Source: a virus
Direction: 5' to 3' (one strand)
Virus record (IMG/VR): IMGVR_UViG_3300036766_002181
Coordinates: 62,001-126,000 of that record
Length of the DNA: 64,000 nucleotides
The position numbers were made by a program, and so were the translations under genes. Below are positions 18,722-54,645 of this stretch, one piece after another. Numbering within the stretch: position 1 is the stretch's first letter; each line of letters opens with the position of its first letter. The notes below the pieces were generated by a model. The model saw nothing but the letters and a program-made list of their open reading frames with translations, was not told where the DNA came from and made no database searches.

Positions 18722-19216
18722 TTAAAAAATCAACGGCCAAAGCGCCTTAACAATAATTGCTATGGCCGCAAGAAGAAAGGCCCACAAAACCTTGTTTGTA
18801 TTCTTGTTTAGTCTAACTGCTCCATCCAGGTGTTCTAAACCCTGCCCGCCTATTTTTTTTAAACTGTTTTCAAGATTTTCAACCATCATCAATCTGCTGC
18901 TATATGATTTGGTACTTTCAGAAAGTTCTCTTATCTCGTCAACCAGACCGGCACTTATATTTTTTGTATCCTGAATTCTTCGATAGATGCCATCATCAGG
19001 ATTATATAGGGCCTGTCCTATTTCTCCAATCTTCTCCTTTGTTTCATCCTGTTTAATCATAACCGAGTTAAGATCAGAAACAATTTTTCCTTGAATATCC
19101 TTAATTTCATTTACCTTATTAACAAGCTCGTGAAATTCCCCATTCATGGCTGGTGAGTTTTTTATTTCTCTTAATAGGGAAAGGATTTCTTTTTCTTCTT
19201 GTTGTGCCGAGGGCAT
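18722..19216 (-). CDS. Coiled-coil protein with C-terminal membrane anchor
   Basis: 164 residues from ATG 19216. Long heptad-like helices (EEKEILSLLREIKNS, then a Val/Ile/Lys-rich coiled coil) lead to one C-terminal hydrophobic helix (about 146-163, VLWAFLLAAIAIIVKALW). The tail-anchored topology leaves nearly all of the protein in the cytoplasm. Possible roles are membrane tethering or lysis control; nothing is diagnostic. It is divergent from the chaperonin gene. Confidence 0.6.
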   Translation of the reverse strand: MPSAQQEEKEILSLLREIKNSPAMNGEFHELVNKVNEIKDIQGKIVSDLNSVMIKQDETKEKIGEIGQALYNPDDGIYRRIQDTKNISAGLVDEIRELSESTKSYSSRLMMVENLENSLKKIGGQGLEHLDGAVRLNKNTNKVLWAFLLAAIAIIVKALWPLIF

Positions 19217-19264
19217 ACTATTCCAATCCAACAATCGAACAATAACGTATTATAAGATATAAAT

Positions 19265-20794
19265 ATGGAAGAATTTAACAAAATCAATAAATTTACCAAT
19301 TTTAATAATCGACAAGGGTTCTTGGCCGAACTCACAAGAGTCTCTGATAAGTTTGTCAAAAACTATACGAATATAGAGAGCCTAATAACACAAAATTTAA
19401 TTCTTATAGACAAAAATAATTCTTATCATTTTCTTAACGAAATTCTAAAGCCCGACTTAAACAACAAAATAGAAGTTAATATATGTAGGCTTTTAAGCAA
19501 AACAATGCACCAATCAGAATTATTGGCCTGTGATGCTTCTCGCATGGTTTTTGCCGGGGCCTTATTGGCACTTGAAAAAATATTAAGAAATGAAAAGCTG
19601 TTAAATACAATTCTTCATAAAGATGATGATTTTGAGCAGAGCCTAGAACAGGCCATGAGAAAAATCAAGGAAGCAATTCAAAATTGTGCCTCTATACCAA
19701 CAAAAAATACAATAAAAAGCCAATCAGCATTTTTTGCCCAATTCACAACACAAGGTACAGAGCAGTTGCATCGTGTCTGTATTGAAGCAGTTGAATTGGC
19801 CGGCCTAGAAGGCAAGATTTTTATAAAAAATGGAACACAGAATAATCACTACATTCTTGAATTAAAGGATGGCTATACCTTTGACTTGTTAGAATCTTTT
19901 GAAATGTTTTCTCAGCAGCCATCGGGTGGAGTTTGGGAAAAAAGAGAATGCAAGGCCCTTGTTGTTGATGGCTTTGTTGAAAAGGTTTCTGAGATTGATC
20001 AACTTTTGAATGTTGCCTATGAAACAAAACAACCTATGATTATTGTTTCCCAGGGCTTTTCTGAGGAGGTTGTCTCCACTTTATTTACAAATTGGAGACA
20101 AGAAAAACTTCAGGTTTTGCCAATTAAACTAAAACAAGATATAGATAGCCTCAATGTTATTAATGACATTGGTGCGGTTTGCGGTATGGAGCCTATTTCA
20201 TATCTGCGAGGCGAACTATCAAAATATATTAAGTTTGAAAATTTGCCAACAATTGATCGTATTACCGTTGCCTTTAACAAAAAAAGTAGCAAGTCAAAAC
20301 ACCAGGTTTCCTTTGAAAACAATAAAACAAAAAAGGCAGTCTTTGCTCAAATAAAAGCCCTCTCAGAAAAAAGAGAACAAAATAAATTTGTTGAGGACGT
20401 ACAGGGCTTCATGGACAATAGAATTAAAAGCCTATCTCCAAATTCTGTTTATTTTTATTTGCCAAATGAAAGCCCTGCCTCTTTGGATCAAAAAAGAATA
20501 ATAATAGATACCAAGCTAAGACAAATAAAAGGCATGTTTAATTATGGCGTTGTTGACAGCGACGACTGGTGTTATCACCTAACCCGAGATTATTTGCTTC
20601 ATCATAGCGGAATTTATAGCATGGCGGAAAATGAGTTTGAAGAAATTTTTTTCAAGTTTATTACTGAGATTTTTTTCGATATCAGATACGGACACAGCTT
20701 CTCTTCTTTGGCAGTCTACGTAGGACTCCTTTTGGGGATTAAGCTTGGCTTCTCTTTAATTTCTTCGGGTGGAATCATAACAACAGAAAGCTAG
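19265..20794 (+). CDS. Divergent GroEL-like chaperonin
   Basis: 509 residues; bacterial GroEL has about 548. Sequence landmarks follow the GroEL order: AGLEGKIFIKNGTQ (like VGKEGVITVEDGT), LELKDGYTFD (like DVVEGMQFD), KQPMIIVSQGFSEEVVSTLFTNW (like [21 protein letters not shown], apical domain, about 258-280), RITVAFNKK (like KRVVINKD), AQIKALSEKREQNKF (like AQIRQQIEE) and the end SSGGIITTES (like SVAGLMITTEC). The ATPase loop GDGTTT is reduced to CDASRM, keeping only the Asp, and the GGG of the equatorial domain is lost, so ATP use is doubtful. No GroES is seen nearby. It may fold large virion proteins. Confidence 0.8.
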   Translation: MEEFNKINKFTNFNNRQGFLAELTRVSDKFVKNYTNIESLITQNLILIDKNNSYHFLNEILKPDLNNKIEVNICRLLSKTMHQSELLACDASRMVFAGALLALEKILRNEKLLNTILHKDDDFEQSLEQAMRKIKEAIQNCASIPTKNTIKSQSAFFAQFTTQGTEQLHRVCIEAVELAGLEGKIFIKNGTQNNHYILELKDGYTFDLLESFEMFSQQPSGGVWEKRECKALVVDGFVEKVSEIDQLLNVAYETKQPMIIVSQGFSEEVVSTLFTNWRQEKLQVLPIKLKQDIDSLNVINDIGAVCGMEPISYLRGELSKYIKFENLPTIDRITVAFNKKSSKSKHQVSFENNKTKKAVFAQIKALSEKREQNKFVEDVQGFMDNRIKSLSPNSVYFYLPNESPASLDQKRIIIDTKLRQIKGMFNYGVVDSDDWCYHLTRDYLLHHSGIYSMAENEFEEIFFKFITEIFFDIRYGHSFSSLAVYVGLLLGIKLGFSLISSGGIITTES

Positions 20795-39749: not shown

Positions 39750-40847
39750 ATGATATTTGTTCAAAAAGAAGCTGCTGGTGACTCTGGCATGATAGAAAAA
39801 TCTGGAATTTATCAAATTAAAAATATCATAAACAATAAGTTATATATCGGTTCTGCTAGAAACTTCAGAATAAGATTTAATGACCATATTCATAAACTTA
39901 AAAGGAATAGGCATCCAAATAAATATCTTCAAAACGTTTATAATCAAAACCCAAAAAGCTTGGCTTTTACCATAATAGAAATTGTTGAAAACTGGCAACT
40001 TAATCTTCTTATAAAGGAACAAGAATATTTGAATGTCTTCCACGACAAACAGCAGACCTGTTATAACATGTGTCCTACGGCTGGCTCGGCTTTTGGAAGA
40101 AGACACTCAGAAGAAACCAAGAAAAAGATGTCACGATCTGCTATTGGACAACCGTGTTCTATAGAAACCAGGGCCAAAATGTCTGAGATAAGCAAAAAAA
40201 GAATTAAAGATCACTTTAAATCTGGCAAAGAAAATCCAATGTTTGGAAAAACCGGGAGCAAACACCATTTTTATGGAAAGCACCAAAGCTCAGAATCAAT
40301 TCTTAAAAGAAAAGAAACCATAGCAAAAAGAGACAAACCAATTGCCTATCATGCCAGACAAATTGCCCAATATGATATGGAGGGAAATTTAATTCAGATT
40401 TTTAAATCCGTATCAGAAGCAGAAAGACAATTGAAAAACAAAGGCATCAGTAGTTGCATGTATAGAAAAGCACAAACTTCTGCTGGTTTTGTCTGGAGAG
40501 ATCCGCTAGAGGATGGTTCTTTTCCGTCAAAAATTGATGCAATTACAAAAAAGCCCACTGGCTTTTTTGGCAGACATTCACAAGAGACAATAGAGAAAAT
40601 AAGAAAAAATCATCCAAGCAAAAGATCAGTACAACAATTTGACAAACTCAATCAAGCCATATCTCTTGAAACATATTCCAGTCTAAAGGAAGCCAGCAGA
40701 AAAACTGGAATAGTCTATTCTACAATTTGTGCCTGCTGTAAAGGCAAAAGACCATCTGCCGGCGGATTCATATGGAAATATCTTTTAGAAAAAGAACCGC
40801 CAGCAGATAATCAATATCCACCATCATCATCTTCTGGCTTGTTATAA
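39750..40847 (+). CDS. GIY-YIG homing endonuclease
   Basis: 365 residues, or 352 from ATG 39789 where GGTGA lies 9 bases upstream. GIY-YIG core: SGIYQIKNIINNKLYIGSARNFRIRF (about 17-42) and an asparagine/glutamate region to about 100. NUMOD3-type helices (RRHSEETKKKMS, SIETRAKMSEISKK) and two NUMOD1 repeats (IAQYDMEGNLIQIFKSVSEA and VQQFDKLNQAISLETYSSLK) bind DNA. Opposite strand to its neighbours and directly behind the tube gene start, a usual place for an invading endonuclease. Confidence 0.92.
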   Translation: MIFVQKEAAGDSGMIEKSGIYQIKNIINNKLYIGSARNFRIRFNDHIHKLKRNRHPNKYLQNVYNQNPKSLAFTIIEIVENWQLNLLIKEQEYLNVFHDKQQTCYNMCPTAGSAFGRRHSEETKKKMSRSAIGQPCSIETRAKMSEISKKRIKDHFKSGKENPMFGKTGSKHHFYGKHQSSESILKRKETIAKRDKPIAYHARQIAQYDMEGNLIQIFKSVSEAERQLKNKGISSCMYRKAQTSAGFVWRDPLEDGSFPSKIDAITKKPTGFFGRHSQETIEKIRKNHPSKRSVQQFDKLNQAISLETYSSLKEASRKTGIVYSTICACCKGKRPSAGGFIWKYLLEKEPPADNQYPPSSSSGLL

Positions 40848-43645: not shown

Positions 43646-46624
43646 TTACACTTGGTTTGTAACCACAAAGTCAATGCTCACCGTTTCAAGCGTCTTGCTA
43701 GGCGTAATAAATATGGATCCTCTTATAATCCTGTTTTCTAAGTCTGCCTGAGTGGTCGTTGTTGTATCGATCTTAACCAAGAATCTTTCAACTCCCTTTT
43801 GATCCTGTATGGCCTTTAAAATTGGGGTTGTAAGCTGGGCAAATCTTGCAAGGGTTTCTTCACGACCCTGCTCAAAGAGCATTCTATAACCAACGGCCTT
43901 AACCTTGCGTCTAATGTCAATTAGAAGCCTTCGAACGTTAACTCTATCAAGAGAGCTTTCAGTTTGAAGAAGTGTCTTTTGTCCCCAAACCACAACTCCT
44001 TCTGAACCTGCAAAAGAAACAAGTGGATTAATGTTTGCATCCTGAAGAGTGTCCATGTTTTCTTTAGACAGTCTAACGGCTGCCGATTCTACTGTGTCTA
44101 GAGAGCCTCTGGTAAATCCAGCAGGAGCAAACCATGGATGGGCTACTGCATCATTCTTTGCAAAGGCACCAAGAACGGCGACTGAGGGTGGCACCACTCT
44201 GGTTCTTCCTGTAAAACTATCTCTAAGAACAACATCTGGGAAATAGGCAGCACCAAAAGAGCTGTTAATTCCACGGGCTGTATGTTGGTTGGAGGTGTTC
44301 TTAACGCTCAAAATCTGATTACTTGAAGAAATTGGCAAATTCTGAATATCATACTGTGGAACATCCATAATAAAGACAGAATCAAATCTGTTTTCATTAA
44401 CAAGAAGCGCCCTATCAGTGATTACTGTATGGCGAATTCCTGGAACTGCCATCATTTGAATGTCAATTTCTGTAACATCCTCAAAGATATCCAATGCCTT
44501 ATTAAAAGCAGCAACCGTTGGTCCGTCAGTAAGGCCACGATCTGCATAGGTCATTTCTTCTGTCACGGCCAAGTCTGTCATGTTGACGGCATCTCTGTCG
44601 AAAACATTTGTTCCATCAAATCCGCCATGCAAGAAGAAGGAGAACTTGGCAACATTGCGTGTTGCGGCATCAGTCAAATCATTTACAGAAAGGGCTCTAG
44701 TGTCGCTGTCCACTGTAACATTACCATCTCTTACATAAATCCACTCATCCATTTTTTGTGTATTTGGTTTATCAAAGGCATTAATTGCAATTTGTATATT
44801 TCCCAGGGAGAACTTATTATGATTAAATCTATCAGCATCAAGAATGCCATTCTCGGCAGAATCGGCAACTCCCTGGTTATTGCTTAAGACCATATTCATA
44901 AAGTCTGTATGGAAATTTGGATAATACTTGTTAAACGACAGGATGTTGGTATCCTGGGCCGTGCTTAGGTTTGGCTCTGCAACGCTGGTCTTTTCTTCAA
45001 ATTGAATGCCCCAATAAAGAGCCTTATCAACAACTCTATTTGGCGTTGAGCCTCTGGTAATTCTTTCTCTAAGAGGAACAGGCAATTGAACAATATTAAA
45101 GAAGGGATCAGAAACAGAAAGATAATCACCATCATCAAAACTGTTAAATGGAGCCGACCCAGAAGTTACAAGGTGTGGAACCCCACGGAAACCAAATGGA
45201 ACTGCGGCAGGAGAAAGTTCGCCATCAGAAACCTTGTTGGCCATTTCAACTCTCATATATCTTGAATTGTTTTCAAAATTGCCTTCGGTAATAAGCTTTT
45301 GTGAGCCAATTGCTGCATCAAAATTAAAGAAGGTTTTTGTATCTCCAACAATTCGAGCAACATATTGCGGAGAATCAGGATTTAGACTTAATCCTCTCCA
45401 TGCCTCAACTGCAACAGGAGCCTTGTCATTGTCGTTAAAATCTCTTACAAGGAGATCAAACTTGCCATAAGGCTCTGCATCTGTGCCTGGGATAATATTC
45501 TCAATTGAGAACTTAAGTCTAGAGTTTGGTTCCTTGCCATCTGAAAGGGCAGAAATCTTAAACAGATTTTCTTCCTGGCCACCAAATTTCTGTGAAACCA
45601 CATAAACAGATTCGGCAGTACGATATCTGTCTTCAAAATTTTCAAAACTTGGGATCGTGGTTGAGCCCGAGTTTCTAGTTGGCGAAGCTGACGTTAATAG
45701 GAAAACAACGTCTTCAGTTTCGAGTGCTCCCGAGACTGCGCCTACACCAAAATCCTCTAAAACAACACCTGAGCCTGTTGGCGTGGCTAGGGCTGGGTGA
45801 ATTTTATAATCAGCATATAGGAGGTGGCCTGCCTGCTCGACCTTATAAGGATCTGTATTAAGCACCTTGGTAAGATAGTTTGGTGCCGTTGGGTCAAAGG
45901 AGGCTGTAATAACATTTGGAAAGGCTGGATCAGGATTGCTGTGTCCATTTAGAAGCACAACAAATTCTTGACGCCCGTTGGCTATGTTTAGAGAGCCTGT
46001 AAGGCTCCCTGAAGCCGTTGAAGAAGTGCCTGTGGCATCTGGTGCATTGTCTGCCACTCTGCTGCTAGAGAGGGTTGCATACACTCCTGAAGCTGCAAAA
46101 ACAATACCACGAACAACCGGAACTCCTTCTATTGGTAGGCCAGCATCGGAAAAAATTGTTGAGGAACCTGTTTGCTTCATATAGCAACCAAGGACAAAGG
46201 TTCTGCCTTCATCTCCTTCGCCAGGAACGGTTACATATTGATTATCATCAAGACCACCACCAGGAGCCTGTGGAAGAACCGCACCGACAACAAAGCCGCC
46301 AAAAACAACACGGCCAGAGTTGTCACCAGCATCTTCTCTTGCCTTGCCTGAACCGGCACCAAGAACCCTAAGAAAGGTTAATGCCTGTGAATTTCTTAGC
46401 CATTCGATGGCTGCCATGGGAGCAGCAGCCTGATCATCTGTCGATGTACCAAAATCTACCACGAAGTCTGAATCCGTTGGAAGGGTTACAGGAACGAAGG
46501 CTGGTCCCTTTTGAGAAGTGCCTATAACTCCAGCCGGAATACCGGCAGGACGAATTGAAGTTGGACCAGTTCTATTGATTACCCTTGTCGTAACTCCTGC
46601 GCTCTTGTATGTTATTTGTGACAT
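43646..46624 (-). CDS. Tail sheath protein, copy 1
   Basis: 992 residues, much larger than T4 gp18 (659). N-terminal GPTSIRPAGIPAGVIGTSQKGPAFVPVT (about 19-46) and the C-terminal conserved sheath region: HPWFAPAGFTRGSLDTVESAAV (about 838), VSFAGSEGVVVWGQKTLL, then VRRLLIDIRRKV and the final IDFVV strand. A middle insert (about 150-700) forms extra outward domains. AGGAAG lies 6 bases from the ATG. It polymerises around the tube and contracts. Confidence 0.92.
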   Translation of the reverse strand: MSQITYKSAGVTTRVINRTGPTSIRPAGIPAGVIGTSQKGPAFVPVTLPTDSDFVVDFGTSTDDQAAAPMAAIEWLRNSQALTFLRVLGAGSGKAREDAGDNSGRVVFGGFVVGAVLPQAPGGGLDDNQYVTVPGEGDEGRTFVLGCYMKQTGSSTIFSDAGLPIEGVPVVRGIVFAASGVYATLSSSRVADNAPDATGTSSTASGSLTGSLNIANGRQEFVVLLNGHSNPDPAFPNVITASFDPTAPNYLTKVLNTDPYKVEQAGHLLYADYKIHPALATPTGSGVVLEDFGVGAVSGALETEDVVFLLTSASPTRNSGSTTIPSFENFEDRYRTAESVYVVSQKFGGQEENLFKISALSDGKEPNSRLKFSIENIIPGTDAEPYGKFDLLVRDFNDNDKAPVAVEAWRGLSLNPDSPQYVARIVGDTKTFFNFDAAIGSQKLITEGNFENNSRYMRVEMANKVSDGELSPAAVPFGFRGVPHLVTSGSAPFNSFDDGDYLSVSDPFFNIVQLPVPLRERITRGSTPNRVVDKALYWGIQFEEKTSVAEPNLSTAQDTNILSFNKYYPNFHTDFMNMVLSNNQGVADSAENGILDADRFNHNKFSLGNIQIAINAFDKPNTQKMDEWIYVRDGNVTVDSDTRALSVNDLTDAATRNVAKFSFFLHGGFDGTNVFDRDAVNMTDLAVTEEMTYADRGLTDGPTVAAFNKALDIFEDVTEIDIQMMAVPGIRHTVITDRALLVNENRFDSVFIMDVPQYDIQNLPISSSNQILSVKNTSNQHTARGINSSFGAAYFPDVVLRDSFTGRTRVVPPSVAVLGAFAKNDAVAHPWFAPAGFTRGSLDTVESAAVRLSKENMDTLQDANINPLVSFAGSEGVVVWGQKTLLQTESSLDRVNVRRLLIDIRRKVKAVGYRMLFEQGREETLARFAQLTTPILKAIQDQKGVERFLVKIDTTTTTQADLENRIIRGSIFITPSKTLETVSIDFVVTNQV

Positions 46625-46676: not shown

Positions 46677-49600
46677 TTATACGAAACTGGTCCCGGACCT
46701 AGTTATGACAAAATTCATATCAATAAATTCTACTGATCTAACCGGCTTTAAAACAATTCGACAATTGATTTTATGAGCATTGATATCTGCATCAGAATTG
46801 TTCGAACTATCGCAGATAATCTTAAAAGTCTGGATTCCTTGTCTAATTTGAACGCTTGTCATTACTGAATTAATTTGATTTTTTAATTGATCCCTCAAGT
46901 CAGGAGTAATGTTTTCCCAAATTAGGCGATTTCCAATATCGATAACCTGGCGCTTAAGATCATTAAGCATTCTTACAACGTTTACGCTACCAAGAGCAGA
47001 CTCTTGCTGCTCTAAAGTATTTTGTGAAAATATGACATAACCTTCTCTTGGGAATTTAACAATTGGGTTGATATGAGCCGAGAAAAGTCTATTTCTTTCT
47101 GGCTGGGTGATTCTCGTGGTTGTTCTTTTAACAAAATCAAGAGCAGCTCTGTTAAACCCTGCGGGTGCAAACCAGGGATAGGCAACCCTATCGTTGAAGG
47201 CAAGAGCAGATACGGCTGCCACAGAAGCAGGAGCGGTTACTCTTCTTCCATTTGCCTCGTCGTCCATAACAATTTCTGGGAAATAAGAAGCCACGAATTC
47301 ATTATCAATTGCCCTGCCTTCAAGGGCATTTGCAGTTTTCTGTGGATCTGGAAAAATTCCAGTTTCTCCATCAAAAACTCTTTCGCCTGCGGCGTTATAG
47401 TTTGGAACATCCATTACATATAATGCCAGACCATAATCTCTAACCTTGTCGGCATAAAAATCGGTTACAAGTGGATCTCTCTGTCCCGGCACAGCAACCA
47501 CATTAACATTAGATGCCATTGCATCTGTAATAATCTTGGCCGATTCTCTATATGAGGCAACCGTATTATTGGCTATTCCTACTCCGTTTTGATTAAAATC
47601 AAATCCGGGAGAAATAAATGAGCCGTTAACATTTCCTAGAGTACCATCTGTTCTGTCTTCTGTTGAAGAGGCTCTATCGTCATAGGTGGCAGCATGCTTG
47701 TCAAGAATGTTTGCCCCATCAAACCCGCCTTGAAGAACCAGAGTAAATTTAGCAAATTGTGAAAATGCATTAAAGGTAGCAGCAGTTGCTCCCTTGTTAA
47801 CAAGAGTGGCAAAGGTAATCCTGTTGGTTGCATCGTCTGCATCTGTAATCATATAGTTTGTTACGTCAGGAATACCGTTTCTTATATAGGCAGCTTCCTT
47901 AATGTGCGCTTCAGCAGAAGAGGTTAAATCATTTAAACTGGTATTACCAAATGCAACCTTGGCCAGGGTAAACTTGTGATTGTGGAATCTATCCTGATTC
48001 ATAGAACTCGTTACGACAGCATCAAGCTCAGAAATTCCATTAAATTGAGTGTAGGCTGCAATAAGAGCATTTGGCTCTGTTACAGGATTTGGGTTTAGAA
48101 CATCCTTAATTCTTTCTAGTTTAACGCCCCAGAAGAATCTTCCGTCAACAATTTCAAAGTTGCCAGGAGCACCTTCTAGCTTACCAGCCTCTGTGGATAC
48201 TGCTCCACGGGTAATCTTAAATCTAAATGGAATTGGTGGTACAACGGCGGCCAACAACTCTGCATCTGCACCCGAAGTGCCAAGATTTGCATGCAATCTT
48301 TTGATATCTGCGAAATCAGCAAGAGAGCCAGATCGATCAAGCAATCTAGAGTTTGTGCTTAAAACTTCATAGCCTCTAAAGCCAAATGGAAGCGATTCGG
48401 CTGGAATCAATTTGCGCTCGACTTCATCTGAGGCAACAACCCGAACAACCTTTGATATGTTTGCATATCGGCCAGAAACGATAAGTCTACGGTCCTGCTC
48501 GTCTTCTGCATCAAAGTTATAAAAGGCTTTTCTGTCGCCAATCTTATGACAAATATAGTTTTCTGATTCAGGATCAAGATTCACATTATTAAATTGTTCA
48601 AGTATACTAATGTTCGTATCTGTATCCTCAAAGTCTCTTACAAGAACCGTAAATGTGCCAAACTTATATCTTGGATTTGAGGACTTCTTAATATCAGAGA
48701 TAGAAATCTTAAATTTCTTATTTGGAAAAGCCCCATCATCACGGGCTTCGAAATGGAAAAGATTGTGCTCGGTAATGCCAAAGGGCTGAGAAATAATTGA
48801 AGGAGTCTTTGCCTGTTTATATCTTGTATCAAATCTTCCAAAGGCATTTAAGAAAGGAAGACCCGTATCTCCTGAAAGATCGCTGGTCTGTGCAGAGCCA
48901 GAAGCAATAACAACATCTCCGCTGCTTGTTCCTACGCTTGCAACGGCGTCATCTACGGCGAAGTTTGCATAAACAACGTGCTTATATGTGCTAAATTGTT
49001 CTGGATCGGTGTTAAGTACCTTGGCAAAATAATCATCATTTGAAGGATCAAGAGAGGCGGTTACAATTCTAATTCCAGGATTTCCTTCATCGGCGGCAAA
49101 GCTTGCACCCAAGGAACAAGAAATAACAATCTTAAACTTTTTGGTTGTACTGTTTGCGGTCGCAGCATCATCTGCACCAATGGCCCAGGATTCATCATGA
49201 TCAAGAACCTGAATTCTTGTATCATTGGCCGTAAAGATAACGCCTCTTACAAGACGAGCATCTGAGCCAGAAAGACTGGTATTATGTGAAAATCCTGCCT
49301 GTCCAAAAGATTCACTCACTGAAATCTCGTGTCTTGCCACAAGAAACTGAACGGCACCATGAATTGGCTCTGAAGCCAAGGAGGCACTAACCTTAAAGCC
49401 GGCATTTACAACCGTTCCCTGTGTTCTTGTTGTTTCTATATCATCGGCGGTTGTGTTGCCACCAGCCCCCAAAACACGCACGAAAGTAAGGGCAGACCTA
49501 CTGTTGAGATGTTCGATTACAGCATAGGGAGCAGCAAATCTTGGGTTTAAATTGCCAAATCTTGTTTTAAAATCAGGAAAGGAACCAACCGTAACCGGAA

Positions 49601-49727
49601 CGAAGGCAGGGCCTCTTTCTGAGGCCCCTATGATACCCGCAGGAATACCAACTGGCTCTTGAACTTCGGCACTTAAGTCAACTTCTGTAGAAAAAAAGCC
49701 TGGAAATTTAAACACTTGACTCGTCAT
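46677..49727 (-). CDS. Tail sheath protein, copy 2
   Basis: 1016 residues and similar throughout to the copy downstream: VPVTVGSFPDFKTRFGNLNPRFAAPYAV at the start, YPWFAPAGFNRAALDFVKRTTTRI, IVKFPREGYVIFSQNTLEQQESAL and VNVVRMLNDLKRQVID at the end. Middle parts differ in sequence but follow the same order. The two may form a mixed sheath, or serve different zones (cap or contraction end). SD-like AGAGGT lies 9 bases before the ATG. Confidence 0.92.
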   Translation of the reverse strand: MTSQVFKFPGFFSTEVDLSAEVQEPVGIPAGIIGASERGPAFVPVTVGSFPDFKTRFGNLNPRFAAPYAVIEHLNSRSALTFVRVLGAGGNTTADDIETTRTQGTVVNAGFKVSASLASEPIHGAVQFLVARHEISVSESFGQAGFSHNTSLSGSDARLVRGVIFTANDTRIQVLDHDESWAIGADDAATANSTTKKFKIVISCSLGASFAADEGNPGIRIVTASLDPSNDDYFAKVLNTDPEQFSTYKHVVYANFAVDDAVASVGTSSGDVVIASGSAQTSDLSGDTGLPFLNAFGRFDTRYKQAKTPSIISQPFGITEHNLFHFEARDDGAFPNKKFKISISDIKKSSNPRYKFGTFTVLVRDFEDTDTNISILEQFNNVNLDPESENYICHKIGDRKAFYNFDAEDEQDRRLIVSGRYANISKVVRVVASDEVERKLIPAESLPFGFRGYEVLSTNSRLLDRSGSLADFADIKRLHANLGTSGADAELLAAVVPPIPFRFKITRGAVSTEAGKLEGAPGNFEIVDGRFFWGVKLERIKDVLNPNPVTEPNALIAAYTQFNGISELDAVVTSSMNQDRFHNHKFTLAKVAFGNTSLNDLTSSAEAHIKEAAYIRNGIPDVTNYMITDADDATNRITFATLVNKGATAATFNAFSQFAKFTLVLQGGFDGANILDKHAATYDDRASSTEDRTDGTLGNVNGSFISPGFDFNQNGVGIANNTVASYRESAKIITDAMASNVNVVAVPGQRDPLVTDFYADKVRDYGLALYVMDVPNYNAAGERVFDGETGIFPDPQKTANALEGRAIDNEFVASYFPEIVMDDEANGRRVTAPASVAAVSALAFNDRVAYPWFAPAGFNRAALDFVKRTTTRITQPERNRLFSAHINPIVKFPREGYVIFSQNTLEQQESALGSVNVVRMLNDLKRQVIDIGNRLIWENITPDLRDQLKNQINSVMTSVQIRQGIQTFKIICDSSNNSDADINAHKINCRIVLKPVRSVEFIDMNFVITRSGTSFV

Positions 49728-53559: not shown

Positions 53560-54645
53560 TTAAAACAAAACCCAGCCTCGATATTTGCCATGTTTCTTTT
53601 TGCCACGTATAAGCTGGCGCAAATTGTGTCTCTCAAGACTGTGTTTCTGACAAATCTCAACTATTGAGTAGCCTTCTACCACTTCTCCCAGCGGAGACAA
53701 AAGTCTTGTCAGAGAGCGGGCTTCAATAGTGTTTAAACAATTGCTTTGATTCCATTCCTCATTATTATAATTTTTATATCGAGTCCAGCCTTTATAAAAC
53801 CACAGACTTTCTCTCGTTATGTCCCTAACCTTTGTTTCAGACAGATTATTTTCATTGGCAAAATCTTGAAGATTTGTTATATTTTTGTAAAGAATACCAC
53901 CTGGCGAAAGAAGATTTGCATTTTGAAAACCTTTGAAATTTCTTGTGTCCTTTCCAACAAAATCAAGTTCTTTTAGAATTGGCCTTGAACAAACCAGCTT
54001 ATGCTTTTCTTTTATATTCTCCAATAATGCCTGTCGGCGCTTTTCTATAGCCTCTTTTGAATGAGTCTTTTCATGCCTATCAGGATCTTCTTGCCACATT
54101 TTTTTGAGCATTTCAGATGTGGCTTGTTTTCTTTTTTCATTGCCTTTCCATTGTTCCTTTCGAATTTCTGAAAGATTTTTTCTATGTTCCTCTGTTTGCG
54201 CAAGTCTATTATTTTCCATCATTTTCTTTCGAATTTCTGGGTTTGCCCAATTGGCAAGAGCAACTGCCGATATTTTTTTGCTTGTTTCTTCAGGTGTTTT
54301 TGAATAACAAGAACGGCCTTCTCCTTTTGATTGTTTTTTGAAGTTATAGCACAGGGCTTGTTTGTCATAATATTTTTCAATATATGATTCCTCAATCAAA
54401 AGCCTATCTTCTTGTGGTCCTTCTACTGTCTCCAAAATATGAAATTCAAATGCCTCTTCTCCGCATTTGTTAAAATCATTCTGAAGAAACTTGTTGTGGT
54501 GGGTTCCCTTTCTTAGGGATTTTAAATGGGCATTGCCACGAGATTTAAACTCTTTTGCAGAACCAACATAAATGCGACCATTTATTATATTAACGATTTT
54601 ATAAACTCCTGACTTAAGAGAATTTCCTTCATATAAAAATTTCAT
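53560..54645 (-). CDS. GIY-YIG homing endonuclease
   Basis: 361 residues. SGVYKIVNIINGRIYVGSAKEF (about 11-32) is the GIY-YIG core; LLIEESYIEKYYDK contains the catalytic Glu region. NUMOD3-type repeats follow (EETSKKISAVALANWANPEIRKKM, then KEQWKGN). It ends in a degenerate NUMOD1/HTH. It lies on the same strand between the two neck-like genes, where such endonucleases commonly insert. Confidence 0.9.
   Translation of the reverse strand: MKFLYEGNSLKSGVYKIVNIINGRIYVGSAKEFKSRGNAHLKSLRKGTHHNKFLQNDFNKCGEEAFEFHILETVEGPQEDRLLIEESYIEKYYDKQALCYNFKKQSKGEGRSCYSKTPEETSKKISAVALANWANPEIRKKMMENNRLAQTEEHRKNLSEIRKEQWKGNEKRKQATSEMLKKMWQEDPDRHEKTHSKEAIEKRRQALLENIKEKHKLVCSRPILKELDFVGKDTRNFKGFQNANLLSPGGILYKNITNLQDFANENNLSETKVRDITRESLWFYKGWTRYKNYNNEEWNQSNCLNTIEARSLTRLLSPLGEVVEGYSIVEICQKHSLERHNLRQLIRGKKKHGKYRGWVLF

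Follow-up and report, generated by a model that had tools for sequence, protein, structure and literature searches.

The window analysed here, a stretch of 64,000 nucleotides, was taken from a record of 244,715 bases that represents a giant virus of bacteria, in which it spans positions 62001-126000. An ATG-started open frame at 19265-20794 (+ strand) encodes a 509-aa protein (P0001) that we describe as a predicted ATPase-dead chaperonin-like protein, based on the ORF analysis, PHROG and hhalign profile matches, an AF2 model and Foldseek. Both flanking genes are on the - strand, one across a 30-bp divergent gap and the other with a 4-bp tail-to-tail overlap. The divergent neighbour (18722-19234, -) encodes a coiled-coil protein of 170 aa that has a SPAMNG motif and is hydrophobic at its C-terminus; a homologue of it (E 9e-12) also adjoins the chaperonin-like gene of G017 (L128), which encodes the nearest relative of the window protein by tree path. 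The sequence TATAAATA, which lies at the start codon, was not retained as a T4-type late promoter: the window contains six copies, about as many as expected from base composition, and this copy overlaps the ATG.

The N-terminal equatorial part of the protein (residues 1 to ~141, boundary approximate; 19265-19687, +) keeps its helices and has lost the nucleotide loops. Within it, CDASRM (residues 89-94; 19529-19546, +) is aligned in place of the GroEL motif GDGTTT, with only the aspartate D87 kept. The apical domain (residues ~202-394; 19868-20446, +) is the best conserved part in the family alignment. The C-terminal equatorial part (residues 428-509; 20546-20791, +) is shortened, lacks the GGG loop and ends with IITTES, which aligns with the C-terminal strand of GroEL.

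The window protein is a divergent homologue of group I chaperonins. It matches PHROG 5725 ('chaperonin groEL') with an E-value of 3.4e-15 and, as a single sequence, solved Hsp60/GroEL chains (best E 6e-7), and hhalign aligns the profile of its family with a profile of canonical GroELs over residues 3-433 (probability 99.8, E 2e-30, 390 columns, the C-terminal equatorial part falling outside this alignment). Identity to GroEL is 13-17%, and neither the window protein nor four of its relatives match the Pfam chaperonin family (PF00118), the cut-off of which is passed by the second chaperonin of the same phage (P0002, see below). An earlier note, made from the letters of the window alone, had proposed a divergent GroEL-like chaperonin with a degraded ATPase loop in which the order of the GroEL landmarks is kept up to a final ITTE motif; the profile comparison confirms the first point, and the alignment confirms both the landmark order and the loss of the loop.

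Scans of viral contigs with the window protein and with the partner GroEL gave no relatives; the window protein is too divergent for its relatives to be retrieved directly. Environmental relatives are numerous, however, for the tail sheath protein encoded by this phage (1016 residues). In a set of 35 sheath-relative records, one canonical and one divergent chaperonin are encoded by each of the three longest (235, 254 and 257 kb), with the divergent gene lying directly downstream of a gene for a PrkA-type AAA+ protein and before an RNaseH-like gene; one 97-kb record has the divergent chaperonin only. Using first the tail sheath and then PrkA as anchors, we collected 80 phage loci, of which 78 have enough sequence to be informative. 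A divergent member is found directly downstream of prkA, always on the same strand and with a median gap of 266 bp, in 60 of these 78 loci (54 distinct sequences), as detected by a profile built from five divergent proteins only. The cluster that recurs in loci L139-L218 consists of the PrkA-type AAA+ protein, the divergent chaperonin, an RNaseH-like protein (PF04308) and a protein of ~158 aa in which CHC and CNNCG motifs occur. Where the divergent gene is missing beside prkA, several PrkA records have a canonical groEL ~5-10 kb from prkA, a further hint that the prkA region is concerned with protein quality control. The association is not universal: no match to PrkA exists in the record that contains the window, and in G050 the divergent gene is far from prkA; PrkA is therefore not essential in all members.

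A search of 50,697 phage records found no clear member of the divergent family, all matches being canonical GroELs. Scanning the GTDB species genomes with a pattern yielded one, on a Halobacteriovorax metagenome-bin contig with the same gene cluster. This contig (L219, PBIO01000025.1, 101 kb, binned as Halobacteriovorax sp.) is possibly a hint at the host or possibly a mis-binned phage.

The ATP site was compared with that of 20 chaperonins (E. coli GroEL, the phage's own second chaperonin and 18 other phage chaperonins). D52, D87 and D398 are present in all 20, and N, D and T, respectively, occupy these positions in the window protein; in the alignment it also lacks the GGG loop (after G428), the T30-x-G32 loop, N479 and D495. 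Loss of the whole ATP site in the window protein is thus strongly supported by sequence comparison. Across 58 members of the family, the aligned D87 is kept in the window protein only, with no conservation of the GGG loop. An aspartate is aligned at position 52 in 36 of the 58 members (K51 and G53 next to it are not kept), but single equatorial positions should not be over-read, because the alignment is uncertain at such low identity. An alignment-free pattern, GD[GS][TS][TS], is found in all 27 canonical proteins and in none of the 58 members of the family, whereas looser patterns for the GGG loop and D398 match both groups alike. GDG and GGG strings that occur in a few members were rejected as an ATP loop, as GD[GS][TS][TS] is present in none. 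ATP-site loss is, judging from these patterns, the defining trait of the whole family, and it is strongly predicted that the protein is no longer capable of chaperonin-type ATP binding and hydrolysis.

The fold is predicted to be largely intact. The AF2 model of the window protein (52 sequences; pLDDT 82.9, pTM 0.77) matches whole GroEL chains in Foldseek (E 7e-24), and the model of a relative, L175 (pLDDT 92.8, pTM 0.81), likewise matches whole GroEL subunits; for both, all predicted as single chains, the best TM-scores (0.64 for the window protein and 0.67 for L175) are to GroES-bound states of GroEL. Retention of the three-domain chaperonin subunit fold by the window protein is strongly supported by these models. 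A prediction lacking this fold had been named beforehand, in the earlier note, as the outcome that would speak against a chaperonin, and since the model matches whole GroEL subunits this outcome did not arise. In GroEL, the N- and C-terminal strands together with the stem-loop hairpin form the subunit contact within a ring; all three are retained in the L175 model, but the hairpin is not predicted in the window protein, where the pLDDT of this stretch is ~50. Inter-ring contacts in GroEL lie in the C-terminal equatorial part, which is reduced here from ~116 residues to a family median of 53 (81 in the window protein).

The apical domain is the best conserved region across the family. F215, E243, L248, T272 and N276 of the window protein correspond to F204, E232, L237, T261 and N265 of GroEL. 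In GroEL numbering, N265 is invariant in the family, F204, T261, E232 and L237 are near-invariant, and 98-100% of the members have a hydrophobic residue at F204, L237 and L262. In the apical groove of helices H and I, the position of GroEL L234 is occupied by H, N or D, and Y199 is aligned to a gap.

The same record encodes a second, intact GroEL of 631 aa (152538-154433 of the record; G000:C1; L001:1303-3198; PF00118 E 6.7e-56), ~70 kb from the divergent copy and outside the window. It has an insert of ~18 residues in the equatorial stem loop, without counterpart in most canonical GroELs, and further C-terminal equatorial inserts also absent from most of them. All nine records longer than 200 kb that carry the divergent form (metagenomic records, possibly incomplete) have exactly one canonical GroEL, and a 361-kb record with PrkA (G048) has neither form. 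The co-occurrence of the two forms is not independent of phylogeny, and both may simply be core genes. No match to Cpn10/GroES (PF00166) was found in the whole 244,715-base record, which extends the earlier observation that no GroES is seen in the window, and none was found in the 20 records of the group, while GroES was detected in both positive-control phages. That phage chaperonins are rare, as had also been claimed, is not borne out: 262 records of the phage collection match (some of them bacterial sequence), so they are not very rare.

In a quick, unrooted tree, 58 divergent proteins are separated from 17 canonical ones by a branch with SH-aLRT support of 96, and the EL and PBS1 chaperonins group with the canonical side, not with the divergent family. 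For the pairs that allow an estimate, dN/dS is 0.08-0.37, although synonymous sites approach saturation; this suggests purifying selection on the family. The pair L157/L158 gives a spurious value of 1.26, as its two proteins agree fully through residue 337 and diverge from there to the contig end. As uncultured phages encode no fewer than 54 distinct relatives, the divergent chaperonin is, as far as sequences can tell, a maintained and apparently unnamed family, and not a dying gene.

What the protein does can be proposed only with graded confidence. The reading that we put first, with somewhat less than even confidence, is that it is a non-catalytic, polypeptide-binding chaperonin paralogue that acts beside, or perhaps within, the phage's own active GroEL. 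Its apical domain would passively capture phage proteins in a non-native state, and the protein would cooperate with the ATP-active GroEL, either by being built into that machine as an inert subunit or as a holdase that hands over clients to it, and the two would operate in a system that encodes no GroES. Client binding, the physical partnership and the identity of the clients are what we infer here. The loss of the ATP site, the size of the family, its separate branch, the co-occurrence with a canonical GroEL, the absence of GroES, the fold and the kept apical positions argue for such a partnership; the ~70-kb separation of the two genes, the polar positions in the groove and the hairpin not predicted in the window protein argue against it, as does the frequent linkage to prkA, which may indicate another partner, though the window's record has no PrkA. 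The further proposal that this ATP-free clade of uncultured giant phages is an obligate non-catalytic partner of the phage GroEL, the two forming a two-component, GroES-free folding machine, is doubtful though quite conceivable; a mixed-subunit chaperonin from a virus would, to our knowledge, be the first.

Part of the earlier proposal of an ATP-independent or host-assisted cage agrees with this reading: the ATPase site is indeed lost, but host assistance is not needed as an explanation, because the phage has its own intact GroEL. The cage itself is only putative, the equatorial part that bears the inter-ring contacts of GroEL being shortened. The suggestion that the sheath proteins of about 1000 residues are the clients found no support; GroEL is generally held to encapsulate proteins smaller than the ~110-kDa sheath.

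A stand-alone, ATP-independent holdase, either a monomer or a homo-oligomeric ring that binds unfolded phage proteins without the phage GroEL, is an unlikely but serious alternative. The apical domain is what the family conserves best, the contact strands and the hairpin are kept in the L175 model, and the isolated apical domain of GroEL is by itself able to suppress aggregation (PMC4973282); the canonical GroEL that accompanies the divergent form in nine out of nine large records is, however, not required by this explanation. It is improbable that the protein regulates or caps the rings of the phage or host GroEL, as a substitute for the missing GroES or as an inhibitor of the host machine: GroES was not detected in the group and both models resemble the domain arrangement of GroES-bound GroEL, but no feature similar to the GroES mobile loop was identified, and the domain arrangement in a single-chain AF2 model is weak evidence. 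A role as adaptor of a PrkA module, presenting clients to the AAA+ protein PrkA and not to GroEL, would fit the tight same-strand arrangement at 60 of the 78 phage prkA loci; we hold it to be quite improbable, given the window's record without a PrkA match and the distant genes of G050. Decay of a groEL duplicate that is in the process of being lost would explain the very low identity to GroEL and the lost motifs, but is very improbable in view of 54 distinct intact frames with common invariant residues and a conserved gene order, and of the low dN/dS values given above. Chance or convergent resemblance without chaperonin homology, consistent as it is with the lack of recognition by Pfam, has a negligible probability and is rejected on the PHROG match, the profile-profile alignment and the whole-subunit fold match.

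Compared with group I GroEL/Hsp60 (PF00118), the window protein shares the three-domain subunit, the order of elements, the apical landmarks and the N- and C-terminal strands, but has no ATP site, a shortened C-terminal equatorial part, an identity of 13-17% and no detection by Pfam. The phage chaperonins characterised to date depend on ATP and need no co-chaperonin (PMC7185714, PMC9598537). EL gp146, OBP gp246 and AR9 gp228 resemble the window protein in being phage-encoded, divergent and GroES-independent, with no GroES in the genome; however, D52, D87 and D398 are all kept in EL and PBS1 (D87 only in the window protein), and the divergent family forms a branch of its own and occurs together with a canonical GroEL in all nine of the large records. 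The nearest precedent that we found for chaperonin paralogues without the hydrolysis site are the vertebrate BBS proteins (MKKS/BBS6, BBS10 and BBS12), divergent paralogues that exist beside intact chaperonins and have lost ATP-hydrolysis residues, most clearly in BBS12 (PMC2846930). These are eukaryotic and were compared with group II chaperonins, and their ATP-binding Gly-Pro is reportedly kept (PMC2846930), whereas the divergent family keeps no nucleotide loop. The GroEL minichaperone also offers an ATP-free apical surface able to suppress aggregation (PMC4973282), but it is an artificial fragment, while the phage protein still has intermediate and equatorial domains. In an open-access library we found neither a paper that treats a phage chaperonin lacking ATP use, or PrkA together with such a phage protein, nor any account of a group I clade that has lost ATP.

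In textbooks, chaperonins are machines that run on ATP. A large phage family has kept the subunit architecture and lost the entire nucleotide site, and an intact copy is retained in the same genomes. The family makes it possible to test directly which parts of a chaperonin function in the absence of ATP, and if mixed chaperonin rings are assembled by viruses. Many giant-phage genes of unknown function may be assigned one through it, as the family is unrecognised by Pfam and absent from the annotated phage records searched.

Other genes in the window include those for an alanine dehydrogenase (PF05222/PF01262; 13653-14801, -) and an IMPDH/GMP reductase (PF00478; 10946-12001, -), both carried by the phage, and a macro-domain protein (PF01661; 62683-63198, -), for which a link to ADP-ribose chemistry is a guess. 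GIY-YIG homing-endonuclease-like genes are found amid tail and head genes at 39750-40847 (+) and 53560-54645 (-). Two adjacent genes (43646-46624, - and 46677-49727, -) encode ~1000-residue proteins with a common start pattern: the product of the former matches tail-sheath PHROGs, and that of the latter has more than 500 related stretches in viral contigs. In the cultured Vibrio phage Va1 (L011), a canonical groEL has the gene for the tail sheath on one side and that for the tail tube on the other.
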